Shown: positions 25,801 through 59,466 of the stretch, piece by piece
Layout: the number at the start of each line of letters is the position of its first letter
Position numbering within the stretch: position 1 is the stretch's first letter
Assembly (NCBI GenBank): GCA_030615625.1
Contig: JAUWYX010000005.1
Location: 62,001 to 126,000 of the forward strand
DNA length: 64,000 nucleotides
Direction of reading: 5' to 3'
Source: Dehalococcoidia bacterium
Lineage (GTDB): Bacteria > Chloroflexota > Dehalococcoidia > GIF9 > AB-539-J10
Made by a program: the position numbers and the translations under genes
Notes under the pieces: model-generated
Seen by the model: only the letters and a program-made list of their open reading frames with translations
Database searches by the model: none
What the model was told of the DNA's origin: nothing

Positions 25801-27678
25801 GCCCTTTGGTTTAGTGAAGACAATTCTTGATATATCTTGCTCTATTTTTGTTATGCCCAACATCGCGAAAAATTCTTCATCGATTTCCTTACAAGCTATC
25901 CTTAGCAAGAAGACGAGTCTCATTAAAAGCCTCGCATTATCTTCCATAAGCTTATCTTTAAATGATTGAAGAAATACCCCTGCATAGTCAGATAGCAATA
26001 CTGATATGCAGACTTCGTCTTTCCAATAGCTTGCTACATCCTTATCATTGATTATGCACTCAATTAGTCCTTTCACCTCAGTTGTGCTGTCATGCAACTT
26101 CTCCGAGAGCCAGCTTCTCAAAGCCCTGCGAATTGGCAAAGATGTTCCGATATCTTGGAGAAACTCTTGATGGTCTTTTGTTCGATGGAACGCTCTTTCA
26201 ATAACCCTATCTAGTGCCCATTCTTCATAAATATCCTGTGTGATGAAGTAACCACCTATCACTGGATCATGCTTAATGATTTCATCGGATACTAGCCGAT
26301 GTAAAGTTTCATCATCACATTCGATTGCATCTACAACCAGACGCCCCTTATTAGCTCTATTATGTGCAATCTTTAAGAAGCACTCTTCTCTCCTTACGTG
26401 AGCATTATTCGTTCGATATTCAATTTTAACTATTTGTTTATTCCACAAAGTGTCTTTGAAATCATGGTAGCTAATGGTTTCATCAAGTTTATCACTTATC
26501 CGCAAGTGTTCATTGAGATAGAACGGCGTTGTTAGCAGTTCAAGCAACCTGTTATTTTGCGGAAGATTGAAGTTATATTTTTCTGCAAGGTCGTAAAGAT
26601 ATGCGAGTTTGAGCCTTTCAATTATTATTGATTGGAATGCAACACGATGAATATCAGTTAATTGGAATTTTAGAGCATCTATGTATCCATATCTCGTAGT
26701 TATAATTACCTTCCAATTCGCTGATAGCAATGTGGATAGAAATTCAGTAAACAACTCAATGTGCTCAATATCCGAAAGTTTCTCAGCGGAATCTATTACG
26801 ATGATTTTATCTTTATGAGCTTGATGTTCTTCAATAAAATCCTGGAATGTGAACTGCCCATAATTTTCGAAAAGTGCATTTATATTGGCGATATTAAATT
26901 CTATGGCTCTAAAGACAAAGAATGGTGCCGTTTCTTTTACCATATCATAATAGTCTTTTATGATCGCAGTCTTACCTACACCCGCTTCGCCACTCAACAC
27001 CACCAACGAATACTCACTCAACTTGGATATAAGTTCTTCGAATGTCTGCGATCTATCAATCTTTATTTCGGTGCCTTTAAACTGTATACTCGAATGTATA
27101 GGCGCAAGAACTGATTCTGTATGATTATTTAGCTCTCCAACGAAGTCAATAATACTTTTTTCAAAACTGAAGAGGTGTTTGGCTATGGCGGCATTCTTAT
27201 CGCAGACAAAAAGAGATTCAAAAAAACTCTTGCTTCTCCAGTCAATTTCTATCCCTAAGGTTGACGCATACTCTTCTATTTCGATTTTGTATTTTGGTCC
27301 CTTTTGTCCTTTTATACTGCTCTCTGAGAATTCTTGATTTATGTAGAAAATAATCTTATCGATTGTAGGATTTCGGTCTTTTGCTTTTTTGATTGAGTCT
27401 TTTATCTTCACCTTATTACCACTGATGTTGGTTTCAAAGTATTTTGCCTGGAAGCCAATTACTCTGCCATCACGCTCAATAGGCTCTGTTTCTATTCCAG
27501 CTTGGTTCTTATATCTAAGTATTCCTGTGGGTTTATTAAACTCGTCACAAAATAGAAGATAACAGAGCCATTCAAAAGAACTCTGCTCTTTCCCATTGAA
27601 TTTTGCTGCAAACTTATTCCAGTTTATTTCCTGCATTTCTACTGCACTCTCATCGCTTCTTATTGCACTCAGCCACAT
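22900..27678 (-). CDS. Avs4-like anti-phage STAND NTPase with N-terminal PD-(D/E)XK nuclease domain
   Basis: 1592 residues. The N-terminal ~170 residues look like an Mrr-type nuclease: FEWLCYLLFCDEF, Glu63/Glu65 in AGIETEPI, then GFQAKYFE, where Gln77-x-Lys79 is the (E/Q)xK metal motif. A P-loop NTPase follows: Walker A GEAGVGKT at 230-237 and Walker B KIIVIDSAEK with Asp296, in STAND/NACHT layout. About 1,000 C-terminal residues are helical repeats that would sense a ligand. In Avs (AVAST) proteins, phage terminase or portal binding triggers tetramerisation and DNA cleavage; the Mrr-STAND order and size best match Avs4. The gene is AT-rich against its neighbours and stands alone. The start may be the ATG at 27636. 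Confidence 0.75.
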   Translation of the reverse strand: MWLSAIRSDESAVEMQEINWNKFAAKFNGKEQSSFEWLCYLLFCDEFNKPTGILRYKNQAGIETEPIERDGRVIGFQAKYFETNISGNKVKIKDSIKKAKDRNPTIDKIIFYINQEFSESSIKGQKGPKYKIEIEEYASTLGIEIDWRSKSFFESLFVCDKNAAIAKHLFSFEKSIIDFVGELNNHTESVLAPIHSSIQFKGTEIKIDRSQTFEELISKLSEYSLVVLSGEAGVGKTAIIKDYYDMVKETAPFFVFRAIEFNIANINALFENYGQFTFQDFIEEHQAHKDKIIVIDSAEKLSDIEHIELFTEFLSTLLSANWKVIITTRYGYIDALKFQLTDIHRVAFQSIIIERLKLAYLYDLAEKYNFNLPQNNRLLELLTTPFYLNEHLRISDKLDETISYHDFKDTLWNKQIVKIEYRTNNAHVRREECFLKIAHNRANKGRLVVDAIECDDETLHRLVSDEIIKHDPVIGGYFITQDIYEEWALDRVIERAFHRTKDHQEFLQDIGTSLPIRRALRSWLSEKLHDSTTEVKGLIECIINDKDVASYWKDEVCISVLLSDYAGVFLQSFKDKLMEDNARLLMRLVFLLRIACKEIDEEFFAMLGITKIEQDISRIVFTKPKGNGWDSIIHFIYDNKEEIELSNANIIIPLLGDWNNKNKNGDTTKRASQIALYYYDHYEEIAKNSKYRYSSRDQDKAQLIGVILNGALEISEELKAIFDEVIDKRLTKYTDKYYDIIVMILSSITDGSEVIKVLPNCVIQLAELFWHQPPETHYDYSLGIEPHFGISEKHDLNYFPSSAFQTPIFQLLQAAPVETAKFILSFTNRAVEYYRKSKLGREVSVVKVIFDDNQSREQYVSGRLWNIYRGTHVSTDLLQSMHMALERWLLMNAKVATKETIESWCLYLLRETKSASITAIVISVCLAYPPKLFNVASILFKIKEFFLYDTGRMLRDQNARDTYSIGYGLNYETDIYQDERIRTCDDSHRELSLEHLAFKYQLERFEGESADEVRKRREVIWKILDKHYEALPEQSIETGADKTWRLYLARMDTRKMKTEFKESNEGVIVTFNPEIDPNLRKFSEDSTGTAAAAIKHSSLKLWANYRFTRSPDYQQYKKFEDNPESVIAETREILENLEKGEDPFPEFNRTIPAYTCSVLIRDFVDKLSAKDMEFCRDIIIQFAKTPLRIRDYQYQIGDGTEPSISTLPKLMQHFPEESKEIKSSLILLLLNPWRDIATFATRGIVNWLWETHFDDAHAIFLGYLLLRPKYGDLRKEVIRKKRENHVFDIQETEIVELFTKKHKVELEKVATNKITFSDLQSLSDLDFTTLEIAFELIPPNTQNADHKSFLNIFLPMGAEEIGKDRGGVGYYAKGAFMKKFANFILCSSEDEICTYIQPFIDKFNNSRDMAQLFEEFILAEDALNHYDEFWIIWNAFYDCVVKTYKKHASDYYSNRLIHNYLLAWPYWKKDIREWHTLKEKDKQFYERVSTDIGHHPSVLYSISKVLNEIGSSFIDDGVVWISNILRENPQYISTELETNTVYYIENIMRRFILINRQKIKATLSLKNQVIVILNFLLEKGSTTGYLLREDIL

Positions 27679-28218: not shown

Positions 28219-29157
28219 CTACGGGATCAGCTCACCATCGTACTGATCGTTCAGTTGCGGGTGCGAATCAGACCGCTCATCTGTGACCTCTGAGTAGGCA
28301 TAGGCATGAGCCTCTTCGATGGAATCATCGCCCTGCGTATCAGCGAGACCCTGGAGGAGCCCTTCGTCGACAAAATACTTACCCCAGAGAGTGTTCCCAA
28401 GCAAAAGATAGTCCCAGGCATACTCATCTGCCCGGCATGCTGAAGCGATCACACGGTTCGCTCCCTGCAAGTCACTGGCATCGTCGAACATGCCACCTGA
28501 GTGACATGAACCAAAACACAAGGCGACTTTCTGTGACTCCAGAGCTGAGAGCTTCTGCTGTAAGAAACCATCAGGAAGCCCATAGAAATCATGACTCACT
28601 ATTCCTTCATCTTGGCCGTCCGATTCCGTATCGCTATCCCAACCTTCACTATCAACTGCTCTGAACCCATGACCGCTGAAGAAGAACACTACAGTTGACT
28701 CAGCATCTTCGTTTTTGATCAACCAGTCTATTGCTGAAACTATGGCCCCGTAGGTTGCTTTCCTATTGAGCAGCAACTTGACATTCCCCTTATCAAAACC
28801 GTAGTTCTCTATCAGGGCGCTTGCCATTTCCTTAGCATCCTCGTCCGTGTGCCACAGGTCGTATTGGGATCCTTCGTAGTCAGCGATGCCCACCACCACA
28901 GCCCATTTATTGGCTGGAGGTTCTTTGTCTGGCTTCCCTGGTTTGTCTGGCTTTCCTTCCTGGCCTGGCGGCGCGCCGTGGGGGTTTCCTGTGGGTGTAG
29001 AGGGTCCCCCGACCAACTCCATGGGCGGCTTCACAACCGGCAAATCATCAGGAGTTACCTTGGATGGTCCTCCCATGGCTTGGGTCATCGAAGTAGCAGG
29101 GACTGCAATACTCAATGCCAACACCAGCACAAGAACAATGACTAGTATTCGCCTCAT
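28219..29157 (-). CDS. Secreted caspase-like peptidase (C14 family)
   Basis: 312 residues from ATG 29157, chosen because AAGGAGGTG sits 6 bases upstream; an in-frame GTG at 29166 overlaps that SD. A signal peptide is clear (RRILVIVLVLVLALSIAVPATS). A Pro/Gly/Lys-rich linker (residues 30-80) leads to the caspase fold: NKWAVVVGIADYEG, DAKEMASALIENYGF, the catalytic His163 in VFFFSGHGF, and Cys218 in CFGSCHSGGM. Exported C14 peptidases of this type occur in Chloroflexota and archaea; substrates are unknown. It has its own near-consensus promoter and sits between two dinB 5' fragments. Confidence 0.88.
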   Translation of the reverse strand: MRRILVIVLVLVLALSIAVPATSMTQAMGGPSKVTPDDLPVVKPPMELVGGPSTPTGNPHGAPPGQEGKPDKPGKPDKEPPANKWAVVVGIADYEGSQYDLWHTDEDAKEMASALIENYGFDKGNVKLLLNRKATYGAIVSAIDWLIKNEDAESTVVFFFSGHGFRAVDSEGWDSDTESDGQDEGIVSHDFYGLPDGFLQQKLSALESQKVALCFGSCHSGGMFDDASDLQGANRVIASACRADEYAWDYLLLGNTLWGKYFVDEGLLQGLADTQGDDSIEEAHAYAYSEVTDERSDSHPQLNDQYDGELIP

Positions 29158-29189
29158 CGCTTTCACCTCCTTAATGTGTGTTCCTTTCC

Positions 29190-47134: not shown

Positions 47135-48187
47135 TTACTTTCTCGGTTTGGGACGAAATACCGTTATTTGTGCCTGCGAAATTATTTCCTCATCCCGGCT
47201 TGCCTGGTCCACCGTTTCCATGGCTTTCCTCACCAATTCTAACACAGCTTGGCCGCTAACTGCAGAGATGTAAAAGACAGGCACCCCAAGCTTGGCAAAG
47301 CGCTGCTTCACTTCAGGCAAACGAGCTTGAACCTCAGGCAAATCTACCTTATTTACCGCCACGATTTTTGGCTTATGTGATAAGCCTTTGTATAAGGCTA
47401 TCTCTTTATCCAACGTGCTGAGGTCATCGATAACGGTCGGCGAACTGCCATCCAATAAATAAATCAGCAGCTTGGTTCTTTCCGCATGGCGCAAAAACTC
47501 ATTTCCCAATCCTTTGCCAAGATGGGCACCTTCAACAAGACCGGGAATCTCGGCAACAATAAAGTCTCTCCTATCGTCTGGCATAACTCCTAAAATTGGC
47601 TGGCGGGTGGTAAAGGGGTAATCGGCAATTTCGGGTTTGGCTCTCGATATCGCAGATAATAAAGTGGATTTCCCCGAGTTTGGATGACCAACAATGCAGA
47701 TATCGGTAATGAGTTTTAGCTCAAGGACAATATGCCGCTCTTCTCCTGATTCACCCTTGCTAGCTATCTCAGGAGCTTGATTTACCGCTGTAGCAAAACG
47801 GGCATTACCCAGCCCTCCCCGGCCCCCTTTAGCCACCAAAACCTTTTGCCCGGGGGTACTCAGGTCCGCCAGAAGTATCTCCTCTCCCGCCTCAGCTTTA
47901 GTGAAAACCAGTGTACCCACGGGCACTGAAATAGCTAAATCCTCCCCTTTCTTGCCATGCTTCCGCCAACCACCTCCGTGGCGGCCGTTTCCAGCTACAA
48001 ATTCCTTCTTCCACCCCATCAAGCCCAAATCAACCATGTTGGGACTAGCCATAACAACCACATTCCCACCATCCCCACCATCCCCACCATCCGGACCACC
48101 AAAAGGAACATACTTCTCCCTTCGGAAGCTGACACAGCCATCCCCACCACATCCACCCCCAACCATAATTTCTCTTTTATATATCAT
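47135..48187 (-). CDS. obg: GTPase Obg/CgtA
   Basis: 350 residues. Ribosome-assembly GTPase. The Gly-rich Obg fold (residues 1-158; GGCGGDGCVSFRREKYVPFG, GGPDGGDGGDGGNVV) is followed by the G domain: G1 GHPNSGKSTLL, switch region FTTRQPILGV, G3 EIPGLVEGAHLGKG, G4 NKVDLPE, G5 ISAVSG. The variable OCT C-terminal domain is absent; the protein ends after a short basic tail. No SD sequence is obvious before the ATG. Confidence 0.95.
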   Translation of the reverse strand: MIYKREIMVGGGCGGDGCVSFRREKYVPFGGPDGGDGGDGGNVVVMASPNMVDLGLMGWKKEFVAGNGRHGGGWRKHGKKGEDLAISVPVGTLVFTKAEAGEEILLADLSTPGQKVLVAKGGRGGLGNARFATAVNQAPEIASKGESGEERHIVLELKLITDICIVGHPNSGKSTLLSAISRAKPEIADYPFTTRQPILGVMPDDRRDFIVAEIPGLVEGAHLGKGLGNEFLRHAERTKLLIYLLDGSSPTVIDDLSTLDKEIALYKGLSHKPKIVAVNKVDLPEVQARLPEVKQRFAKLGVPVFYISAVSGQAVLELVRKAMETVDQASRDEEIISQAQITVFRPKPRK

Positions 48188-48322
48188 AAGTTAATAACCT
48201 AACATAGGCTTAATTATATTAATAGATAAGTACTAATCATTATAAACAATGTTGTTGCGAGGGGAATAAACAATGAGGGAGATCAGAGCTCAGAGGGCAG
48301 TGCGGGCGGGATAAGCAACAAT

Positions 48323-48331
48323 TTATCCACA
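48323..48331 (+). promoter_or_regulatory. Consensus DnaA box
   Basis: TTATCCACA, a perfect DnaA box, 6 bases beyond the dnaA stop in the 149-base dnaA-obg gap. The gap also holds a long A+T-rich stretch (48188-48250). Only this one perfect box is seen. Confidence 0.5.
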
Positions 48332-48336
48332 AATTA

Positions 48337-49725
48337 TTAGTAATTCTGCACAGCTTGGTATGCCTCTCTATAACCTTTCTGTGAATTAATTTTCTCTTTG
48401 ATTTCCGCAATTTGCTTAGAAAGGTTAGGATTAATGCTCAATTCGCTAGCTATTTTTTCGTAGCCATGAAGAATTGTGGCGTGGTTTCTGCCCCCTAATT
48501 CTTTGCCGATTTCGGTTAGAGAGCAGTTGTGTCCTTCGCGCATAAGATAGATGGCCACGTGTCGTGCCAATGTAGTTTTTCTATCTCTTTTCTTGTTAAT
48601 TAGCTCTTCTGCTGAAAGGTTGAAATGGTCCGCTACCACCCGTAAGAGCAACTTTATGTCTTGTTTACGGGTCGTGCTTGTTAATAACTTGTTGATTGTT
48701 TCGGGAGTGAGCTTGGTTCCACTTAATTTAGCCTGGGCAGTTAGATATACCAAAGCACCTTCAAGCTGGCGGACATTCTCGCATACTTTCTCCGCTACAA
48801 TGTGCAGCACCCCTTCCAAGTCTGAAGTCATCATTGTTTCTGCTTTAGCCCGTAAGATATTCAGGCGTGTTTCAAAGTCGGGTGGTTGTATGTCAACGAC
48901 AAGAGCCCCTTCAAGGCGTGATTTTAGCTTGCTGCTAAGTGGATGCATGTCTTTGGGAGCACAGTCGGCGGTGATGACAATTTGAAGGTTATAGCTGTAT
49001 AGCTCGTTGAAGGTGTGGAAAAAACATTGTAAGGTTTGTTTCTTGTCGATCAGGAAGTGAACATCGTCGAATAGAAAGATATGGATATTTCTGAATTTGC
49101 TGCGGAACTTGTCAACTTGATTTTCTCGCACAGCTAATACAAATTCATTGGCGAATTGTTCCGCGGTAATATAGGCCGCTTGCAGCCCATTGTTTGTCGT
49201 TAAATGCCCGATAGCATGTAGTAAATGAGTCTTACCTTGCCCGGTGCTGCTGTGAATGAAAAGAGGGTTATAACTGCTTCCTGGATTTTCAGCTACTTCT
49301 ACAGCGGCAGCATAAGCTAACCGGTTAGAATCGCTGACAACAAAGTTATCAAAGGTATACCTTGGATTGAATCTATACTGTGTAGCTTTGCTGCTTGTCC
49401 CGCCATCGGTTTGCTTGGCCAAAGGGCTAGCTGATAGTTGTTCGCGATTGTGGACCGCGAATTGGACGTCGACATCCTTACCCATAATATCAACCAAGGT
49501 CTTCCTTACCAGAGGATAAAGGCGCTTGGATAGCCATTCAGCGACAAAAATGTTAGGGACACTGACGACAAAGGTATTATCTTGGCAGCTTAGACCTTGG
49601 CTATTGCTAAGCCAGGTAGTATAATTTGCCTTGCTGACCTGAATTTGAAGCTTGCCTAGGGCGCTATTCCAAATTTCTTTCGCTGGTTCCAATCTATCCC
49701 CATTCCCAACAATGCTCAGCCACAA
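48337..49725 (-). CDS. dnaA: Chromosomal replication initiator DnaA
   Basis: 462 residues in four domains. N-terminal domain I has WNSALGKLQIQVSKANYTTW. AAA+ domain III has NPLFIHSSTGQGKTHLLHAI (Walker A), IFLFDDVHFLI (Walker B) and SRLEGALVVDIQPPDFETR. DNA-binding domain IV ends with ARHVAIYLMREGHNCSLTEI and GGRNHATILHGYEKI, the DnaA-box recognition signature. Upstream of obg-nadD on the same strand; gyrB lies beyond those on the other strand. Confidence 0.96.
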   Translation of the reverse strand: MWLSIVGNGDRLEPAKEIWNSALGKLQIQVSKANYTTWLSNSQGLSCQDNTFVVSVPNIFVAEWLSKRLYPLVRKTLVDIMGKDVDVQFAVHNREQLSASPLAKQTDGGTSSKATQYRFNPRYTFDNFVVSDSNRLAYAAAVEVAENPGSSYNPLFIHSSTGQGKTHLLHAIGHLTTNNGLQAAYITAEQFANEFVLAVRENQVDKFRSKFRNIHIFLFDDVHFLIDKKQTLQCFFHTFNELYSYNLQIVITADCAPKDMHPLSSKLKSRLEGALVVDIQPPDFETRLNILRAKAETMMTSDLEGVLHIVAEKVCENVRQLEGALVYLTAQAKLSGTKLTPETINKLLTSTTRKQDIKLLLRVVADHFNLSAEELINKKRDRKTTLARHVAIYLMREGHNCSLTEIGKELGGRNHATILHGYEKIASELSINPNLSKQIAEIKEKINSQKGYREAYQAVQNY

Positions 49726-49857
49726 AGATAGCTGAAAAGAGTAGTAAGACGCGGTTAAGAATTTAAGAGCTTACTAGTTATAGAATATCAAGTTTTCTCA
49801 AACCTTCGCTAGGCAATGTTTGACATAATGAAAAAATTAATTAAAAATAGTTTTGCT

Positions 49858-50802
49858 ATGAAAGTGCGCACCGTTTTTATGGGCACTCCGCAATTTGCTG
49901 TGACCATACTGGAGTCTTTGCTCCAGGGTTCCTATCAGGTGCTTGCTGTGTATACTCAGCCCGATAAGCCGGCTGGCAGGGGGCGCCCGGTTGTTTTTCC
50001 TCCGGTGAAAAAGCTGGCTCTGGAGCGACAAATACCAGTTATTCAACCAAAGACTTTTAAATCAAGCGAGGTGGTGGAGAAGCTGGCCAGCTTTCAGCCC
50101 GAGCTAATAATTGTGGCAGCCTTCGGTTCTATTCTTCCCCCAGAAGTGCTTTCCTTGCCCAGATTTGCCTGTCTTAACGTTCATCCTTCACTATTGCCGC
50201 GGCATCGAGGTCCATCTCCAGTCGCTAATACCATTCTCTGCGGAGATGAAATTACTGGTGTTACCATAATGTTAATGGACGCTGGACTGGATACCGGGCC
50301 GATTTTAGCTCAGGAGAAAGCGGGGATTTCCTTTATGAATACCACCGGCTCGCTTAGCTCCACGCTGGCTGATGTGGGAGCCAAGCTTTTGCTGGAGACC
50401 TTACCCAAATGGCTTGGGGGCGAACTCAGACCACAAGCTCAAGATGAGTCCCAGGCTACTTGTAGTAAGTTGATAACTAGTAAAGATGCCGAGATTGATT
50501 GGCACCTTTCCACACTCGAGCTTTGGCGGAGAGTAAGGGCGTACAATCCCTGGCCAAGCTGCTATACTTGGTATCAGGGGAAACGACTAAAAATCCATAG
50601 AGCTATTCCTTTTGGCGATGTAGCAGAGGGGGAGATAGGGGAAGTAATCGCCTTGCCAGAGCCACCTGGAGTTGGGGTGGTAACTAGGCACGGTATTTTA
50701 GGGCTTTGCCAGGTTCAGTTAGAAGGAAGGCGCGAAATGTCGGCAAATGATTTTGTCCGTGGGAAAAGAGATTTTATTGGTTGCGTTCTGGGGCGGAGGT
50801 AG
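49858..50802 (+). CDS. fmt: Methionyl-tRNA formyltransferase
   Basis: About 314 residues from ATG 49858 (MKVRTVFMGTPQFAVTILES); the frame is open to an ATG at 49816 but the extra 14 residues are not part of the family. Formylates initiator Met-tRNA with 10-formyl-THF. The catalytic region is LNVHPSLLPRHRGPSPVANT, with AAFGSILPPEVLS before it and MLMDAGLDTGPILAQ after. The C-terminal OB domain starts near residue 205 (RAYNPWPSCYTWYQGKRLKI). Divergent from dnaA. Confidence 0.94.
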   Translation: MKVRTVFMGTPQFAVTILESLLQGSYQVLAVYTQPDKPAGRGRPVVFPPVKKLALERQIPVIQPKTFKSSEVVEKLASFQPELIIVAAFGSILPPEVLSLPRFACLNVHPSLLPRHRGPSPVANTILCGDEITGVTIMLMDAGLDTGPILAQEKAGISFMNTTGSLSSTLADVGAKLLLETLPKWLGGELRPQAQDESQATCSKLITSKDAEIDWHLSTLELWRRVRAYNPWPSCYTWYQGKRLKIHRAIPFGDVAEGEIGEVIALPEPPGVGVVTRHGILGLCQVQLEGRREMSANDFVRGKRDFIGCVLGRR

Positions 50803-50817
50803 CTTCTCTTGCCAGCA

Positions 50818-51048
50818 TTATTCTGCAAACATTTCCACAAAATCTAGGATAATAGCCAAAACAGCATCGGATGCCCGAATTATGCCACACTTGCTAAAAG
50901 CAGCGTCATACACCTTGCCTCTGCCCATCACTTTCCAGTGCCATGCTGAAGAATGCTTGGCGGAGGCAAAGGCGCTAAGAGGGGTCAGGGTGGATCCCTC
51001 TATACGGTATAAGCAAGCTCCTTTGACTTCGGGACTATTGGCTAGTGA
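50818..51048 (-). pseudogene. Possible relic of an NDP-forming acyl-CoA synthetase
   Basis: On the - strand a frame without a start codon runs 76 codons to TAA at 50818. Its end, VYDAAFSKCGIIRASDAVLA, resembles the YDAAFxQAGVIRVxxxxEL segment of acetyl-CoA synthetase (ADP-forming) alpha chains, and an HSSAWHW stretch lies where HTGALAG would be. Stops lie directly upstream. If right, it is a decayed gene fragment filling this 348-base gap. The match is by eye and short. Confidence 0.3.
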
Positions 51049-51150
51049 CTAAGATGCCGGCTACCACCGAGGATACATAGTGGAGACGCTGGCAAACAAA
51101 GGCATTAGGACAGTTCCCTTGAGATAAGTAGCAATTTGCTTACTAACTGT

Positions 51151-51978
51151 TCAACGACCGCGCTCTCGTTCTCTCCATCGCTCACGCAATCTCTCCTGAA
51201 AGGGTGGCACGCTGTCCTTCCAGAATATCGTGAATCCACCACCATAATCCCTTCTTATCGCGCCTATCAATAAATGATTATTCAGCATGTCCATGAGTAT
51301 CTTTATTCGCTGTTTTTCACTCCTGATGACCACATAACCCCTAAAGAACTCATTATCTCCTGTGTCTGTGGGGATCGCTGTATCTGATGTAAGAAATACA
51401 ACAACATGCCTGCAAACGCGCTTCATATTAAGTAGGTAGTTGCGTGGACGTTGGTACCGCCTATCGTCTAAGTAACCTTCAATCAGCCTATTTCCCAACA
51501 CTACGCAGATGGCACCTCTCATCACCTCGGTGGAAGCCTTGAAAGCCTCATCATCTGTACGTACGCCACTCGGCAACAGCTGAGCAAGCTGCATGCCTGT
51601 CTCTTCCAAGAATACATCATCGCCTACCCTACGTGCGATGCGGCTCTCTTCAAGCAGTGCCATTATATCGTCCACTTCGCTTTGGGCACGATTTATCAGC
51701 TCCTGTAGTTCAACAACTGGGATAGGCGCATTCGGATAGTCGCGCATCGACCTAAAGATAAGCTCGTCAGCTACAACAAAATAGCGTCTAGCTCTGGAGT
51801 CTCGATTAAATGTAAAGCTCAATTCTCGCACAAAATTGCGAGCAACATCATCATTTTGGATTTCCCCTGTAGCACAAGCTTCATAGAGCACGTCGGTTGC
51901 CAGCATGACTAGGTCGCACTCAGGGCAGAAGTTATCTCTGTTTCTTTCTCCACATAGAGGGCAAGGCATCTCCGTCAC
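51151..51978 (-). CDS. Zinc-ribbon protein of the AAA+/SMC-like operon
   Basis: 275 residues, no family recognised. An N-terminal four-Cys ribbon is clear (Cys6, 9, 18 and 21: CPLCGERNRDNFCPEC). Residues 75-135 contain a helical stretch (VVELQELINRAQSEVDDIMA then LLEESRIARRVGDDVFLEE) that reads like a winged helix. A long middle region has RRYQRPRNYLLNMKRVCRHV and the C-terminus is very basic (RERWRERERGR). Zinc ribbon, possible winged helix and basic tail suggest nucleic-acid binding. It is the last gene of a five-gene operon; its ATG overlaps the stop of the SMC-like gene by 4 bases. Confidence 0.75.
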   Translation of the reverse strand: MTEMPCPLCGERNRDNFCPECDLVMLATDVLYEACATGEIQNDDVARNFVRELSFTFNRDSRARRYFVVADELIFRSMRDYPNAPIPVVELQELINRAQSEVDDIMALLEESRIARRVGDDVFLEETGMQLAQLLPSGVRTDDEAFKASTEVMRGAICVVLGNRLIEGYLDDRRYQRPRNYLLNMKRVCRHVVVFLTSDTAIPTDTGDNEFFRGYVVIRSEKQRIKILMDMLNNHLLIGAIRRDYGGGFTIFWKDSVPPFQERLRERWRERERGR

Positions 51979-53864
51979 CTCGCTTTCACAGTTATTTCTT
52001 CCTCTCCTTTTTCAGCAAGTCTGGTAACTATGACATACAGACTTTTTTCTTGCGCCATTCGGTCAAGATAGTTCAAAATCCTTCCCGTCTTCGTACCATC
52101 ATAGCTAACCATCACCTCGTCAACTATAAAGAATGGAATGTCAGGGACATAAGTCTCTTTCAGAGCAACCTGCAAAACTATAGCTAATGAGTATTTCTCT
52201 GAAGTGCTCAAAGATTCAATGGGCTGTCTTACAAACCCAGGTCGAAAGATTTTCAGCTGCTTGTCATCCTTGTCAATGGCTATTTGGTCAAATTCAGAAA
52301 ACCCCAAATCAACCATGACCTTTTTAACATTATTGTTGAAATCTGCGATAGCCTTCATCTCATGGTCATGCTGCTTCTGATCAAGGTATTCTCTCATATC
52401 GCACAACTTATCCTGTAATTTACGCCACACATTTTGAGCCTGGTGGAAGGACAACCTCCTCTCCCGAATGTCAACCAAGGAGCTTTCCTTGATCTTCTTC
52501 GTTTGGTCGGCAATCTCGTTAGCTACCGCTTCAATACTTCTCTCAATCTTTTGTAAAGTCTCGTGAACTTCTGCCTCCCACTGCTCTGTCTCCTGCTCTA
52601 ACTTCGCTTTCTCTGTATTGAGGTCAGCTTGTTCGCGCTCGATTCTAGCCAGAGCCTTCTTTGTTTCATCCAATGTTTTCGTTTCTATGGATTTTCTTAC
52701 TTCTAACTCTCTCTTTTCTTTCTGGATATTGATTATTACCTTATTAAGGTCGTCAATTTGTCTTATCGCGGTGGCTTCCTTTTGTAACTCTCTGGTTCTT
52801 TCGCTCGCTAACGCCTGAATTTCCTTTTCCCTGTCTCGAATACTCCCGTTAAGTTCTATTATCTTCTCATTAAGGAAGGTCAAAGTGACAGTGGAAACCT
52901 CACACACTGGGCACGAGCCTTCCTCTTCTCCTCGCTGAGCCAGTACATTCTTGGCATCAGTAAATGTCGATCTCTTGCTATTCAGCGAAGCTACCTCCGA
53001 ACGTAAACCGCCTATTTTGCTATCAATTACAGGGACAGTTTGGCGAACCTCTTTCCTAATTGTGTCTAAGTCAATGCTCTCAAGCTGCCGTTTAATTTCC
53101 CGCAGATTTCGCTCATTGCTTTCTAGCCGCCCTTCGAGATACTTAATATTTTGCTTAGATTTGGAAATGCTACCTTCGTGTTGTGCGATTAGCCCTCTCT
53201 TGACATCAATCTCGTGTTCAAGGCTTTTTATTTTCTCTATATGCTCTCTTTTTTGCTGGTCAAGTTTTTGAGCAAGTTGATCTCTCTCTCGGTCAAGTTT
53301 TGCCCTTTCTTCTTTCTTCGCTTGTAACTTTCTATCTTGCTCGACTAGCGTCTCTTGCCTCTTAACTATTTTCTCAACCTCTTGCTCAGCATTTGTCAGC
53401 TTGGAATCTATGAATGCTTTGGCGATAGCATACCATTGCGCATACGAAAGTAGTCTTGTCACCCATGAAAAGTCAGAAGCGCCCTCAATGAGCTGGCGAA
53501 TGCCTCTTGCTTCCTGGGTTAACATACCAGTCAGCAGAAAGCGTTGGTCGCCCTTAGTGGCGCCAAAACTACCATCGCTCTTCATATACCATTCTTGTTT
53601 CTGTCCATTGTAGCTCAGCAAAACTGTAGCATCTTTCTCATAAATGTTCTTAAGGCTTTCTCTCGAAACTCCTTGATTTGTGCCCTCACGGATTATTTCA
53701 TCATGAGTAAGTCTTCCGCTCAGGACTGCGCCTAAACCGCGCATTATAGAGGTCTTGCCTGTAGCATTGCCTGCCACCACCTCGTTCACCATTCCTTTCT
53801 CAAATTCAAATTGCTTGGTTCCTTTAAAGCCACCTATGTTCTGTAATTCAAGCACTGCCTTCAT
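51975..53864 (-). CDS. Rad50/SMC-like ATPase with zinc hook
   Basis: 629 residues. ABC-type head halves at both ends: VLELQNIGGFKGTKQFEFEK and Walker A AGNATGKTS near residue 34, and C-terminal signature IESLSTSEKYSLAIVLQ with Walker B PFFIVDEVMVSYDG. Between them two long coiled-coil arms (about 180-310 and 330-470, rich in Lys, Glu and Gln) meet at Cys318-Pro-Val-Cys321, a Rad50-type zinc hook. The arms are short compared with Rad50 or SMC. No Mre11-like nuclease is nearby. The ATG lies inside the end of the 50-residue gene (17-base overlap). Likely binds and clamps DNA; related ATPases occur in Lamassu-type defence and in repair. Confidence 0.85.
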   Translation of the reverse strand: MKAVLELQNIGGFKGTKQFEFEKGMVNEVVAGNATGKTSIMRGLGAVLSGRLTHDEIIREGTNQGVSRESLKNIYEKDATVLLSYNGQKQEWYMKSDGSFGATKGDQRFLLTGMLTQEARGIRQLIEGASDFSWVTRLLSYAQWYAIAKAFIDSKLTNAEQEVEKIVKRQETLVEQDRKLQAKKEERAKLDRERDQLAQKLDQQKREHIEKIKSLEHEIDVKRGLIAQHEGSISKSKQNIKYLEGRLESNERNLREIKRQLESIDLDTIRKEVRQTVPVIDSKIGGLRSEVASLNSKRSTFTDAKNVLAQRGEEEGSCPVCEVSTVTLTFLNEKIIELNGSIRDREKEIQALASERTRELQKEATAIRQIDDLNKVIINIQKEKRELEVRKSIETKTLDETKKALARIEREQADLNTEKAKLEQETEQWEAEVHETLQKIERSIEAVANEIADQTKKIKESSLVDIRERRLSFHQAQNVWRKLQDKLCDMREYLDQKQHDHEMKAIADFNNNVKKVMVDLGFSEFDQIAIDKDDKQLKIFRPGFVRQPIESLSTSEKYSLAIVLQVALKETYVPDIPFFIVDEVMVSYDGTKTGRILNYLDRMAQEKSLYVIVTRLAEKGEEEITVKAR

Positions 53865-54000
53865 TAGTTGTGTCCTCCCTATTTATGGTTTCATCCAATA
53901 TCTGGTCATATAGCTTTTGCAGTTCTCGTTGCAATTTAGCCCTTTCCGGGTTCTCAATAACTACATGCTCCAATACCTGCTTGTCTTCTTCGTTCAACAT
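53848..54000 (-). CDS. Small helical protein of the AAA+/SMC-like operon (50 aa)
   Basis: ATG 54000, 5 bases after a perfect AGGAGG, runs 50 codons to TGA at 53848. It begins MLNEEDKQVLEHVVIENPER and continues AKLQRELQKLYDQILDETIN, predicted helical and highly charged, like a short coiled-coil adaptor. It sits 10 bases after the 171-residue gene and overlaps the SMC-like gene by 17 bases. The strong SD sequence and the tight packing support it as a real gene. No family recognised; it could stabilise or recruit the SMC-like ATPase. Confidence 0.7.
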   Translation of the reverse strand: MLNEEDKQVLEHVVIENPERAKLQRELQKLYDQILDETINREDTTNEGSA

Positions 54001-54010
54001 AGTATTCCTC

Positions 54011-54526
54011 CTAACTGCGAAGTTTGAAAGTCTTAACTAGCACACCGTCGTGGTATACCCTGAGATCTTCACTATCTATTAGAAGCTCTACATATTCACC
54101 TCGCAGGCGTTCGCCTACGCGGTATCTTCGATTTCTAAAATGAATGCGTCCATCCGTAGTCACTAGGCGTTTGCTCTCGTTCTGTGACCTAACTGTTAGC
54201 CCCGAACCTATGTCAATCCAGCTTGCTCTCATAAGATCGAACGTCCAGTTGTCATGTTCTCTAAGCTCGCTGACTATCTTTGTGATAGTTGCCCTCATTT
54301 GCGGAATGGTGTCAAACCTCAAGAGCGCTAACAGGCCAATTGGTTCCTCGAGTGGAGGCTTCCCTCTAATGTCGGCTGTAACGACTACTTCAACGCCTAA
54401 ACTGGCTGATGCCTTTTCAAACCAGTCTCTTACGCCGTCGGTTTCGCTTGCGCTTACCATTAGCAAAATATATTGTTTTTCACCTTGAATTTTCACTTCG
54501 CCTTGCTCAACACTTATCAATCCCAT
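54011..54526 (-). CDS. Unknown protein of the AAA+/SMC-like operon, C-terminus like Mu-transposase C barrel
   Basis: 171 residues. Residues 1-100 form an alpha/beta unit (KQYILLMVSASETDGVRDWF, ASLGVEVVVTADI, LLALLRFDTIPQMRATITKI), unrecognised. Residues 125-171 (TTDGRIHFRNRRYRVGERLR, then GEYVELLIDSEDLRVYHDGV) resemble the small beta-barrel that follows the catalytic core in Mu/IS481-type transposases. There is no DDE core, so it is not a transposase, though the barrel may bind DNA. Its start overlaps the AAA+ gene by 10 bases. Confidence 0.65.
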   Translation of the reverse strand: MGLISVEQGEVKIQGEKQYILLMVSASETDGVRDWFEKASASLGVEVVVTADIRGKPPLEEPIGLLALLRFDTIPQMRATITKIVSELREHDNWTFDLMRASWIDIGSGLTVRSQNESKRLVTTDGRIHFRNRRYRVGERLRGEYVELLIDSEDLRVYHDGVLVKTFKLRS

Positions 54527-55308
54527 ACCCCCCTCTCAACACACTCCATAATGGCGAGCCTTTCTATGTCTCTAATCGTCGGCGACTTCCGTCGGTCTAG
54601 CTCGCCTTCGATTGCCTTTAGAATTGCCGCGCGGTGTCGCTCTGGCACGTCACCCATTGCCCTCAACTGGTACTCAGCTATTTCGAGTAGGGATTCTCTG
54701 CTAGGAGGATGAAATTCTACGGGGTAAAGCCTGTCTCTCAATGCCTCGTCAATCAAATCAGGCCTATTTGTGGTAGCAAAGACAAAGGTCTTGCTCGGGT
54801 CAACGCGGTCTAATTCATGGAATAGAATAGCATTGATTGAGTAATGCCACTCCTTAGCAATTTCAGAACTGCGTGCCAGCATAAGCGATTCTATATCATC
54901 AAAAAGCAATATGACTCGCGCGTCAGCAATCTTCTCTTGTCTTTTTAAAATCTCCCCGAATGAAAAAACTTCTCTTAAAATTGCCTCAGCGTCTCCCCAT
55001 CTAGGAGAGGCTATGCTTGCTCCGTCTAAGAATAAAAGGAATGGTTCATCCTTTCCTGGTTCTGTCCAGATACCAAATTCTCTGGCTATTTGTCTAACTA
55101 GTTCTGTTTTACCTGTCCCAGGCGGTCCTTCAAAAAGAAATCCCTTGAGAGCAGCCTTTGTTCCAACACCTCTCGCAAAAAAATGTCTAAGGACAGCCAA
55201 ACACTTGTGATAGGCAGGCTTATTATCAGCGATGATATCTACTTTTGATATTTGTGAGACTCGCTGGTATTTGAATCTTGTTTGCGTCTCATTAAAGATA
55301 CTGTGCAT
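54517..55308 (-). CDS. AAA+ ATPase, first gene of the SMC-like operon
   Basis: 263 residues, one AAA+ module: Walker A GPPGTGKT at 61-68, Walker B ILLFDDIE near 132-141, sensor-1 Asn181 in FVFATTNRPDLIDEAL, arginine-finger-like RDRLYP, and a C-terminal lid helical domain. It resembles the AAA domains of FtsH/Cdc48-type proteins but has no protease or N-domain of those families. The N-terminus has RFKYQRVSQISKVDIIADNK. First gene of the operon. On the - strand a TATAAT (55389-55394) lies about 80 bases upstream, after the degenerate tRNA-Pro. Confidence 0.85.
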   Translation of the reverse strand: MHSIFNETQTRFKYQRVSQISKVDIIADNKPAYHKCLAVLRHFFARGVGTKAALKGFLFEGPPGTGKTELVRQIAREFGIWTEPGKDEPFLLFLDGASIASPRWGDAEAILREVFSFGEILKRQEKIADARVILLFDDIESLMLARSSEIAKEWHYSINAILFHELDRVDPSKTFVFATTNRPDLIDEALRDRLYPVEFHPPSRESLLEIAEYQLRAMGDVPERHRAAILKAIEGELDRRKSPTIRDIERLAIMECVERGVWD

Positions 55309-55408
55309 GGCTTTTATAAACTTATCTAAGAACCAAAAATCTACATGAAAGCTAAATAGCTAACCTCCTTTTTATTGTACAACAATATTATATCATGTCC
55401 GCCTATTG
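55309..55408. promoter_or_regulatory. Upstream region of the AAA+/SMC-like operon
   Basis: On the - strand a possible -10 TATAAT (55389-55394) is followed by a poly-A-rich leader and GGAGGTTAGC about 45 bases before the ATG at 55308. AT-rich; no other feature seen. Confidence 0.3.
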
Positions 55409-55494
55409 CTCAAGGTGGGGGGATTTGAACCTCTGGCCTCAGCGTCCCGAACGCTATACGCTATGGCAAATTCTCTACCGCATCCCTCATTGAG
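55409..55494 (-). pseudogene. Degenerate tRNA-Pro (anticodon CGG)
   Basis: Read on the - strand: anticodon arm TAGCG-TTCGGGA-CGCTG (anticodon CGG, the usual Pro loop), T-loop TTCAAAT, and an acceptor CTCAATG/CCTTGAG with one mismatch. The T-stem AGAGG/CCCCC is poor, the D-arm cannot be folded well, and the whole is 86 bases, about 10 too many; TAGCGTA is repeated before the anticodon stem. Probably a decayed tRNA. It bounds the five-gene operon. Confidence 0.5.
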
Positions 55495-55652
55495 TATTAT
55501 GCTCCTCTATCTTTTCATGAACACGAAGACGGCCGGGCTCGGCAGTCCAGAGTTTATTCAGGGCGATTCTTTGACTAAGGCGTCAATTATAATCAATGAC
55601 AGTAGTGAAGGGGCTCGCAAAAAGGATTGCCACGCGCCTTTGAAATGGCTGC

Positions 55653-56327
55653 TTAGTCGAAACCGAGCCAGGCAGTGACGTTTTTTATAGGCTCCCGCTC
55701 AGTTTCCAGTTTGTTCGCAGGGAAATCCCAGTCAGGGTAGCCAATGGCGATGGCTATGACTATCCGCTTGGCCTCCGGTATGTGGGCGTATTTTCTTAAC
55801 ACATCGGGATACATCGTTCCCTGGTCTTCGATGCAGGTCCCCAGGCCGAAGTGCAGCGCGGCAAGACAGATAGTCTGTATCAAAGCGCCCATGTCGAGCA
55901 GTGGCCCACTTTCGCTCAGACAGCGATCAGTGGACATGATGATCGCCGCTGGCGCATCAAAGTAACGAAATCCGCGCTCCAGCCATTTTGCCCTTTTCTC
56001 CCTGTCTTCCCTGGGTATGTCCATAAGCTGGAAAAGCTGCTTGGCGAGGTCTACCTGGCGTTGGCGGTAAATGCTCTCCCTCGGCCAGCCCGCAACCACG
56101 TGCTCGGGGTTAGGCGGCGCTCCGGAATTGAGCAGCTCAACGTTGCTCTGTCTTACATTTTCCAAAACCTCACCAGTGAGCACGGTGAACTCCCAGGGTT
56201 GGGTGTTCATAGCGGACGGGGCATGGCTCGCCAATTCCAGTATTTCCTCTAAAACCTCTTTAGGCACAGGGTCGGGTTTGTAGCCCCTGATACTCTTACG
56301 CTTTTTCACGGCTTCGATGACATCCAT
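55653..56327 (-). CDS. Nitroreductase family protein
   Basis: 224 residues. FMN-dependent NADPH reductase fold: the N-terminal FMN-binding KKRKSIRGYKPDPVPKEVLE, PSAMNTQPWEFTVLTG, and GALIQTICLAALHFGLGTCI then AIAIGYPD. Substrates are nitroaromatics, quinones or flavins. The central insert ESIYRQRQVDLAKQLFQLMD is typical of one subgroup. The gene stands next to an acyl-CoA dehydrogenase on the same strand, 140 bases away. Confidence 0.9.
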   Translation of the reverse strand: MDVIEAVKKRKSIRGYKPDPVPKEVLEEILELASHAPSAMNTQPWEFTVLTGEVLENVRQSNVELLNSGAPPNPEHVVAGWPRESIYRQRQVDLAKQLFQLMDIPREDREKRAKWLERGFRYFDAPAAIIMSTDRCLSESGPLLDMGALIQTICLAALHFGLGTCIEDQGTMYPDVLRKYAHIPEAKRIVIAIAIGYPDWDFPANKLETEREPIKNVTAWLGFD

Positions 56328-56468
56328 AAATTTGTTCCTTTTTCGTAATAGTTTCGTTTTTCCAAAAACTTAAGCTGTACTATCCCCCGCCTTGCATTGT
56401 CACGTATTTTTCGGCTGGATATCGATGTAAACCCAATATTTGGGACCTGTATCCGAGGCCTTTCCATA

Positions 56469-57728
56469 TTATGGGGCAGCAGTTATGGGTTCTGATTCGT
56501 AAATCCTTTCCTCCGCCAGCTCTGCTTGGGTGAGAGGAACGTCGGCTTCAATATCTCTGCCCTCGATTCCTTTAGCCAGGATTTCCTTATAATATTCATG
56601 CTGTATTATTAAGTTCATGATTTCGTTGCTACCGGTCCAGATCATGATAAGTCTGGCTTCCCGGAGTGCCCGTTCCACCGGGTAGACGTGAGTATACCCA
56701 ATGCCGCCGAGAATCTGCATGGCATCATTCACCACTTCCCAATGTGTCTGGGTAGCCAGTTTCTTCACCTCTGACACCAGTCTCCTTTGATAAGCCGGAG
56801 TGCCTACTCCATCATCGATGGTTTTAGCCACGGCGTATGCCAGAGCGCTGACAGCATCGAGCTTGGTGACGCAGTCGGCTATCTTGAAGCTCACTCCTTC
56901 AAAATTCCTTATGGTCTGGCCGAAGGCCTTCCGTTTGTTGGCATACCGGGCGGCCAATTCCAGAATAGCTCTGGAGCCACCCACTCCGCCACCGAGAAGC
57001 CTTTCCGGCACCATCAATTTATAGAATACCTTTGCCCCTTCGTTCTCTTTCCCCAGCAGATTCTCCTCGGGCACAGGCACATCGCGGAAGACCAATCTAC
57101 CTGTGCCTGTACCCCGGCAGCCCATCAAGCCGTAGACATGCTTTACCTCCACGCCCATATCCCTCTCGACGATGAAGGCGCTGAGAGAGTCACGGCCGGC
57201 TCCGGGGTTGGTGACGGCGAAAACAAGGAAGAAATCGGCACCTTCAGAGCCGACGACAAAGCGCTTCTGTCCGGTAAGGTAATAGTGATTTCCTTTCTTT
57301 CGAGCCACGGTGGTGGCGCCGAAGAAGTCAGAACCGCCTCTTGGCTCGGTGAGCGCTTCGCCAGCCCATTGTGTGCCGGCGATTAATGGTTTGAGGTACT
57401 TCTCTTTTTGAGTCTCGGTCCCAAACACGTTTAAGCCTTCTCCAACAATGGAGGTAACTGAGACGAGACAGGCAAAAGGCACCCCGAGCTTATTAACCTC
57501 TCCCACCTCGATGAGTTCATCCACCCATTTGAGGTCTCTGCCGCCATATTTCTTGGGGAACCTGCTGCCTAGCAGGTTTCTCCTGCCGGCTTCCCTGACA
57601 AATTCGTAGGGGAACTCGATTTTATCGGCATCCATGTCCAGTATAAGCTGCCGTGGTATGCTCTTGACCAGGTCCTGAACCTCTTGTCTGAACTTTTTGC
57701 GCTCTTCAGTTAAAAATACCTCTAACAT
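56469..57728 (-). CDS. Acyl-CoA dehydrogenase
   Basis: 419 residues. FAD enzyme of beta-oxidation-type pathways. Seen are EALTEPRGGSDFFGATTVAR, the FAD-binding QKRFVVGSEGADFFLV, RLLGGGVGGSRAILELAARYA, KAFGQTIRNFEGVSFKIAD, QILGGIGYTHVYPVERALRE and the active-site region ARLIMIWTGSNEIMNLII. The catalytic-base position differs among subfamilies and cannot be fixed here. No electron-transfer flavoprotein genes are adjacent. GGAGGCAGC precedes the ATG. Confidence 0.93.
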   Translation of the reverse strand: MLEVFLTEERKKFRQEVQDLVKSIPRQLILDMDADKIEFPYEFVREAGRRNLLGSRFPKKYGGRDLKWVDELIEVGEVNKLGVPFACLVSVTSIVGEGLNVFGTETQKEKYLKPLIAGTQWAGEALTEPRGGSDFFGATTVARKKGNHYYLTGQKRFVVGSEGADFFLVFAVTNPGAGRDSLSAFIVERDMGVEVKHVYGLMGCRGTGTGRLVFRDVPVPEENLLGKENEGAKVFYKLMVPERLLGGGVGGSRAILELAARYANKRKAFGQTIRNFEGVSFKIADCVTKLDAVSALAYAVAKTIDDGVGTPAYQRRLVSEVKKLATQTHWEVVNDAMQILGGIGYTHVYPVERALREARLIMIWTGSNEIMNLIIQHEYYKEILAKGIEGRDIEADVPLTQAELAEERIYESEPITAAP

Positions 57729-57860
57729 TGCTGCCTCCTTTTTAGATTTAATAAGCGGGTGTTATGATCCTGGACCAACCGACACAGTCATAGTTCAGTT
57801 TTTCCAGAATCCTGGCCACTAGTATAGCACGTATCAAATTATCTAAAAAAAGGGTAGTGT

Positions 57861-57890
57861 TTGACGATGGAGGTAAAAAGTTATTATAAT
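57861..57890 (+). promoter_or_regulatory. Promoter of the carboxylesterase gene
   Basis: TTGACG (57861-57866), 18-base spacer, TATAAT (57885-57890), 28 bases before the ATG at 57919. Confidence 0.6.
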
Positions 57891-57918
57891 TCAGTCCGCC
57901 TTTAGGTCAAGAAAAGCC

Positions 57919-59466
57919 ATGATTGAGGCTTCAACAGCAGTTGTCGAGACTACCTCAGGCAAAACCGAAGGTGTTTTCAGGAAGGGTCTATACATTTTCC
58001 GTGGCATACCTTATGCAGCACCGCCAGTAGGCGAGCGCCGCTGGTTGCCGCCTGGGCCTCCCGAACCCTGGGGCGGAGTTAGACCGGCGAAGGAGTTTGC
58101 CCCCACCGCTCCACAGGCACCCATGGAGATCCAGTTTCTGGAACCACCAGAGAAACAGCCACAAAGCGAAGACTGTCTTTACCTTAATATCTGGACTCTC
58201 GGGCTGGATGGTGCTAAGCGCCCGGTTATGGTCTGGGTCCATGGCGGCTTCTTCACCACCGGTGCCGGCTCGTGGTTGATCTACAATGGGCGGACTCTGT
58301 CTACACGCGGTGATGTGGTGATAGTGACTATTAATTATCGACTGGGCGTACTGGGTTTCCTTAATCTAAATGAGGTCACAAAAAGCAAGATACCAGCTAC
58401 AGGAAATGAGGGACTGCTTGACCAGGTCTTTGCGCTGGAGTGGGTGCGGGATAACATCTCGCGCTTCGGCGGGGACCCGGATAATGTGACCATCTTCAGC
58501 GAGTCCGCCGGGGCCATGGGCGTGGGGGTGCTACTGGCGATGCCCAAGGTGCGCGGGCTCTTTCACAGAGCTATCCTCCAAAGTGGGGCGGCTCATCATG
58601 TGAACTCGCTAGAGCGTGCTGAAAAGCTGGGGGCTATCTTTCTCGACATTCTAGATATAAAGCCGACCGAGGTTAACAAATTACGGTCGCTTACCGAGCA
58701 GCAGATCCTCAATGCTCAGGTGGAAGTTATGGCTAAAGCGAGTGATCCGAAATTGGCTATGGATGGCTTGCCTCTCAAGCCCGTGGTTGATGGCAATGTG
58801 ATTCCAGAATTGCCGATCCAGGCTATTGCTGGCGGCTCGGCAGACAATGTGGCAGTCTTGATCGGCACCACCTTGGATGAATGGAAACTTTTTGCCGTTT
58901 CGGATAAAAATCTTGCCAACTTGAACGAGGCTGGCCTGCTGCGGCGTTGCCAGCGTCTCATCCCAGGTGGGGATGTGACCGGGCTGGTAGAAGCCTACCG
59001 CCAGGCTCGTAGCCAGAGCAACCTTCTGGTCACCCCTGCTGAATTGTTTATTGCTATCCAATCGGACAGGGTTTTCCGCATGCCGGCGATTCGGCTTGCC
59101 GAGGCACATTATCGCCGTCAACAGCCGACTTACATGTATCTGTTCAACTGGGTTTCACCGCTAATGAACGGAATTCTTGGTGCTTGCCATGCACTGGATC
59201 TGGGGTTTGTGTTCGGGACTCTGGATGACAATTTCACCGGTTCTGGCGAAGAAGCCCGGGCTCTGTCGAGGAAAATCCAAGATGCCTGGGCGGGTTTTGC
59301 CCGTCATGGGGGCACCAGTTGCGAGAGCATGGGTAAGTGGAAACACTATGGTGAGCGGCGGGAGACCATGGTTCTGGGAAAGCAATGCGTATTGGTAGCA
59401 GCCCCGTATGATGAGGAGCGACGTGCCTGGGAACCTTTCGCCGATTCTGTCCTTGGCTCCTTTTAG
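57919..59466 (+). CDS. Carboxylesterase, type B
   Basis: 515 residues, alpha/beta hydrolase of the cholinesterase-like family. FRGIPYAAPPVGERRWLPP, SEDCLYLNIWTLG, the oxyanion region VMVWVHGGFFTTGAGS, the nucleophile Ser in VTIFSESAGAMGVGVL (G-x-S-x-G variant with Ser at the first position), Asp/Glu in LIGTTLDEWKLF, and the catalytic His in GACHALDLGFVFGT are present. No signal peptide. It hydrolyses esters of unknown type; it has its own promoter. Confidence 0.92.
   Translation: MIEASTAVVETTSGKTEGVFRKGLYIFRGIPYAAPPVGERRWLPPGPPEPWGGVRPAKEFAPTAPQAPMEIQFLEPPEKQPQSEDCLYLNIWTLGLDGAKRPVMVWVHGGFFTTGAGSWLIYNGRTLSTRGDVVIVTINYRLGVLGFLNLNEVTKSKIPATGNEGLLDQVFALEWVRDNISRFGGDPDNVTIFSESAGAMGVGVLLAMPKVRGLFHRAILQSGAAHHVNSLERAEKLGAIFLDILDIKPTEVNKLRSLTEQQILNAQVEVMAKASDPKLAMDGLPLKPVVDGNVIPELPIQAIAGGSADNVAVLIGTTLDEWKLFAVSDKNLANLNEAGLLRRCQRLIPGGDVTGLVEAYRQARSQSNLLVTPAELFIAIQSDRVFRMPAIRLAEAHYRRQQPTYMYLFNWVSPLMNGILGACHALDLGFVFGTLDDNFTGSGEEARALSRKIQDAWAGFARHGGTSCESMGKWKHYGERRETMVLGKQCVLVAAPYDEERRAWEPFADSVLGSF

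Follow-up and report, generated by a model that had tools for sequence, protein, structure and literature searches.

A compact operon in a Dehalococcoidia bacterium joins an SMC-like ATPase, most similar to the archaea-specific SMC-related proteins (ASRPs; coalescin of Sulfolobus and Sph of haloarchaea), to an AAA+ ATPase and small partner proteins. This combination is a conserved unit that occurs at different loci and was inserted into the bacterial chromosome. It lies in a window of 64,000 nt, the whole stretch of DNA analysed here (Chloroflexota; GCA_030615625.1, contig JAUWYX010000005.1, positions 62,001–126,000 of the forward strand), and our literature search found no published description of it. 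The best explanation, to which we give about even chances, is that this bacterial lineage gained, by lateral transfer, an operon for a compact SMC-like machine of the ASRP kind. More tentatively, it may stand for an undescribed class of SMC-like complexes that travel as mobile units between archaea and bacteria and whose ASRP motor has an AAA+ ATPase of its own for loading or recycling.

Operon layout, relatives and insertion site

The open reading frames confirm the five-gene unit proposed in a first-pass annotation of this DNA, with all genes on the minus strand, overlaps of 10, 17 and 4 bases and one 10-base gap (Table 1). The 17-base overlap joins the 50-aa gene, whose start is preceded by AGGAGG, to the ASRP gene directly after it. 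No Rfam match was found within positions 48000–58500 of the window, and promoter and terminator scans gave results no better than chance.

Table 1. Features of the operon and of the inserted segment in the window.
Feature	Position	Strand	Basis
AAA+ ATPase, 263 aa	54517..55308	-	ORF; PF00004
171-aa protein	54011..54526	-	ORF; Mu-transpos_C_2 match at C-terminus
50-aa protein	53848..54000	-	ORF
SMC-like ATPase of the ASRP type (coalescin/Sph), 629 aa, CPVC zinc hook	51975..53864	-	NF045487
275-aa protein, predicted zinc ribbon and winged helix	51151..51978	-	ORF, fold model
Segment missing from relatives	50957..55624		Comparison with G007, G001, G019 and G010
tRNA-Pro(CGG) fragment, 43 bp	55421..55463	-	86% identity to host tRNA-Pro(CGG)

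A search of 84,980 species genomes for short peptide patterns returned one close relative, a Dehalococcoidia MAG contig (L006) that carries all five genes in order and in which the 50-aa gene has exactly the same 10-base gap on one side and 17-base overlap on the other. Its flanks differ from those of the window: an XerA-like tyrosine recombinase lies directly upstream and a homoserine dehydrogenase downstream, and none of the window's flanking genes that were tested is found there. A divergent form of the operon was present in one genome of the same genus (G016) and one of the same order (G057), with the gene order 242–244 aa, AAA+ (241–242 aa), 129 aa, 93 aa, ASRP (613–615 aa) and 126–134 aa. 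These two share with the window the succession of AAA+, two small genes and ASRP, but the small genes are others. Between these two genomes and the window or L006, identity is 36–39% for the AAA+ proteins and about 25% for the ASRPs, and no similarity is detectable between the small proteins.

Conservation of gene order, suggested earlier as a check, was thus observed both at a second locus and in divergent form, and the arrangement is not restricted to close relatives at one site, since the L006 locus differs and two divergent genomes carry it as well. Within the order, AAA+ and ASRP co-occurred in 3 of the 84 genomes and neither was found alone, in searches whose alignments were built from these very loci. 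These data support a conserved operon of an SMC-like ATPase and an AAA+ partner. Between the window and L006, dN/dS was 0.06 for the AAA+ gene, 0.25 for the 171-aa gene, 0.28 for the 50-aa gene and 0.07 for the ASRP gene; because these values are low, the coding of these four of the five genes is real and under purifying selection. The 275-aa gene was too diverged for such an estimate, its synonymous sites being saturated. The start of the AAA+ gene is uncertain: the ATG in the window has no clear ribosome-binding site ahead of it, and the L006 protein begins three residues further in.

The operon is flanked by fmt and a nitroreductase gene, with 4.85 kb between them in the window. The same gap measures 54 bp (G007) and 63 bp (G001) in congeners and about 94 bp in G019, and similarity to the gap of G010 ends near position 50956, while that to G019 resumes near 55625. 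In G010, G014 and G002 the gap holds an ORF of roughly 409 aa with many hydrophobic stretches instead; the gap with such an ORF was noted, in three congeners, at L057 (1674–3862), L059 (1622–2977) and L060 (1830–3316). Given the short gaps in three relatives, the operon was therefore inserted into the bacterial chromosome, or replaced the ∼409-aa ORF, in the lineage of the window. The tRNA-Pro fragment within the missing segment is possibly the remnant of an attachment site. Base composition was considered as a sign of foreign origin and dropped, since the GC content of the operon (0.446; mean 0.462) does not set it apart. Contamination is excluded for the window copy, since its contig carries dnaA, obgE, fmt and many ordinary bacterial genes; it is ruled out less firmly for the G016 and G057 copies, whose contigs measure 7.8 and 14.9 kb.

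Family assignment and distribution of the SMC-like ATPase

By far the best family for the 629-aa ATPase was NF045487, the archaea-specific SMC-related protein, at 259.3 bits (E 7.7e-77), which makes it an ASRP-type protein, although the score falls below the curated cut-off of 300 bits and so does not certify membership. The L006 protein scored similarly (257.8 bits, also below 300), and the G057 relative exceeded the cut-off (365.8 bits). An N-terminal Walker A (GNATGKTS), a central CPVC zinc hook and a C-terminal signature (LSTSE) and Walker B (FFIVDE) follow one another in the domain order of ASRPs; the host, by contrast with the archaeal one that goes with the family, is a bacterial chromosome. 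Of the earlier label 'Rad50/SMC-like ATPase with zinc hook', the SMC-like character and the hook hold, but Rad50 gives way to ASRP, as the best Rad50 model reached 43 bits. The remark that no Mre11 nuclease is present proved correct, with no Mre11 or SbcD recognised in a domain search of the five proteins.

ASRPs were defined in a 2022 survey, which found no consensus among their flanking genes and left three bacterial sequences open as contamination or lateral transfer (PMC9389158). An ASRP in a well-bounded bacterial locus with empty sites bears on that question. A branch (97/96) of a 16-row tree separated the four bacterial ASRPs from the methanogen and haloarchaeal ones. Because this tree carries a long-branch warning and has no reliable root, we infer the direction of transfer from the known, mostly archaeal, distribution of ASRPs.

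The window's own genome was the only one of 393 sampled from the class to contain an ASRP, and 1 of 400 did so in a sample of the phylum. No relatives were found among viral contigs in three scans (with the window ASRP, alignment A1 and the G057 ASRP) or in a phage collection queried with the G057 ASRP. Canonical SMC (TIGR02168) did not reach its cut-off in the host (G000) or in 19 relatives, and did so in 10 of 14 control genomes; genomes without an SMC above this cut-off include several that are at least 97% complete. As rare as it is in the class, the ASRP is no general SMC substitute there, and such rarity would equally suit a function in defence or in a mobile element.

Archaeal ASRPs often have a recurrent neighbour: 42 of 50 haloarchaeal SMC-like genes adjoin RdfA family genes (PMC10869688). 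Similarly, RdfA adjoined the ASRP in 10 of the 12 archaeal plasmid loci that we inspected and was missing from two; one of the 10 was called from a PF21811 score of 26.5 bits, just under the cut-off of 27. No AAA+ gene was annotated beside the ASRP in these 12 loci, whose gene table is incomplete. Many archaeal ASRPs were plasmid-borne, in a collection that consists of plasmids only. Neither a domain search nor profile comparison detected RdfA (PF21811) in the five operon proteins.

The AAA+ ATPase and the small partner proteins

The 263-aa protein has a single classical AAA domain (PF00004, 71.8 bits) with Walker A GPPGTGKT, Walker B LLFDDIES and conserved LRDRLY and TIRD motifs. In all four relatives, Asp replaces the usual catalytic Glu of Walker B. 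A Pch2/TRIP13-like identity (PADLOC TRIP13, 39 bits) was dropped, CDC48-type chains being the best among solved structures.

The Mu-transposase-C-like barrel noted earlier in the 171-aa protein was recovered as a Mu-transpos_C_2 match of 28.7 bits (cut-off 27), below the cut-off in the L006 ortholog (23.2 bits); this C-terminal barrel appears to resemble the C-terminal domain of Mu and IstA transposases. It is the only part that matches, and the domain search recognised no DDE catalytic domain. Residues 18–101 are predicted to form a ferredoxin/ACT-like beta-alpha-beta-beta-alpha-beta fold, and a fold search returned ACT domains with Z 9.9–10.6 over residues 8–105; the mean pLDDT of the model is only 51.6, with residues 18–101 mostly at about 55–83. 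Neither this protein nor the 242-aa protein of G057 had a plasmid match. The 50-aa protein is probably helical.

The description of the 275-aa protein as zinc-ribbon and basic also agrees with our data: a CPLC...CPEC motif with a weak Pfam match lies at the N-terminus, and the C-terminus is very basic. The model places a winged helix at about residues 55–132 (pLDDT about 72–83, against a mean of 53.7), the second half of the protein is poorly modelled, and the fold search found winged-helix chains with Z 8–9.4 over residues 55–155. The L006 counterpart is 31% identical. Two winged helices each may, hypothetically, be read by hand into this protein and the 244-aa protein.

KITE subunits serve DNA contact in other SMC complexes (PMC10512200). 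KITE-type features of the 275-aa protein amount to one winged helix with fair model confidence and a weak second one, KITE folds were absent from its fold-search rows, which cover mainly residues 55–155, and no kleisin was recognised. Profile comparisons did not support homology among RdfA, the winged-helix proteins of Methanosarcinales, the 275-aa protein and the small proteins of G016 and G057; the strongest of the 11, between RdfA and the 50-aa protein, reached P 0.01. A KITE-like reading is tentative, as the second winged helix is not reliably predicted and no homology to the archaeal partners was detected.

Possible functions and comparison with known systems

If the operon encodes an SMC-like machine of the ASRP kind, two ASRP heads would dimerise on ATP and their zinc hooks would join, giving a rod that tethers or bridges DNA segments. 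DNA binding could come from the zinc-ribbon/winged-helix protein, in the manner of a KITE subunit, and the 50-aa protein might dock on the ASRP neck, two roles suggested by gene position and low-confidence models. The AAA+ ATPase, with the help of the 171-aa protein as a putative adaptor, would load, unload or remodel the complex. The machine would likely serve chromosome structure or recombination by tethering DNA, in a host where no canonical SMC was detected. Recurring with deeply diverged ASRPs, the AAA+ proteins are candidate partners for a family of little-known biochemistry, and the operon offers a small system for DNA-tethering tests in an ordinary laboratory host.

Work on archaeal ASRPs is consistent with such a role: coalescin is needed for chromosome compartments, as reported in PMC9389158, and efficient gene conversion in Haloferax requires all four Sph proteins (PMC11276520). 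These functions, together with one in cell shape, count against an anti-phage or anti-plasmid system, a reading that we consider unlikely, with the ASRP as a sensor of foreign DNA, comparable to LmuB of Lamassu or JetC of Wadjet, and either the AAA+ or one of the small proteins as effector. The patchy presence of the operon at a variable site, the recombinase next to the L006 operon, an Avs4 gene 23 kb away in the window and the weak resemblance of the SMC-like protein to LmuB and JetC (PADLOC; LmuB-type up to 40.6 bits) would fit this reading, but no nuclease, TOPRIM, protease or membrane effector was recognised in the five proteins and the PADLOC models of LmuA, LmuC and JetA/B/D had no match. 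The first-pass annotation had named the 171- or 275-residue protein as possible effector and neighbouring defence genes as a check. Neither protein has a recognisable effector domain, and the L006 flanking genes tested contain no defence system, only a lone macro-domain protein with weak DarG similarity (L006:12286–12807, 40 bits, about 4 kb from the operon). Its 'DNA-sensing or remodelling machine, perhaps defence' therefore survives as a conserved operon with SMC-like and AAA+ proteins, while the defence part gained no positive support; no PADLOC model fits the set beyond generic SMC and AAA+ similarity. The Avs4 gene itself (window 22900–27678, minus strand) encodes a 1592-aa protein that matches the PADLOC Avs4 model from end to end (1988.7 bits); the GC content of this stretch is low, at about 0.38, and about 540 bp from the Avs4 gene lies a gene for a 315-aa caspase (Peptidase_C14) domain protein (28219–29166, minus strand).

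We regard it as improbable that the operon is a module by which a mobile element is maintained or integrated, with the AAA+ and the transposase-type barrel acting like IstB/IstA or TnsC/TnsB and the ASRP protecting or segregating the element. The Mu-transpos_C_2 match, the XerA-like recombinase at L006, the tRNA-Pro fragment and the plasmid-borne ASRPs of archaea all suit this idea. Against it, no DDE domain was recognised and the AAA+ is of the PF00004 rather than the IstB or TnsC type; the barrel is not recognisable in the G057 counterpart of the 171-aa protein, and no recombinase was seen beside the operon at L007 or L008, only a transposase fragment in L007. A cytoskeletal or cell-shape role, as reported for Haloferax Sph3-RdfA, whose deletions abolish rods (PMC10869688), and for Arcadin-4, is very improbable for an operon with no RdfA match in a bacterial genome.

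Among known systems, Rad50-Mre11 and SbcCD share with the operon the zinc hook and SMC-type heads but include an Mre11/SbcD gene, and their Rad50 models score far below ASRP (43 against 259 bits). Lamassu and Wadjet likewise place an SMC-like ATPase in a compact accessory operon, whereas ours has a classical AAA+ and matches neither LmuA nor LmuC; of JetABCD, the kleisin JetA, KITE JetB and TOPRIM nuclease JetD are unmatched and JetC matches only weakly. IS21 (IstA/IstB) and Tn7 (TnsB/TnsC) are alike in combining an AAA+ with a Mu-type C-terminal barrel and differ in the class of the AAA+ and in having a DDE catalytic domain. The closest likeness is to the ASRP family (coalescin/ClsN, Sph1–4), in domain order, zinc hook and top family match, although the present operon lies in a bacterial chromosome and the bacterial operons have an AAA+ and small proteins as partners instead of the RdfA seen in 10 of 12 archaeal loci. 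In the RdfA-Sph pairs and the ASRP-RdfA-winged-helix operons of Methanosarcinales, the ASRP likewise stands beside small protein genes, and in Methanohalobium and Methanomethylovorans a winged-helix-domain protein follows, as does the 275-aa protein with its predicted winged helix here.
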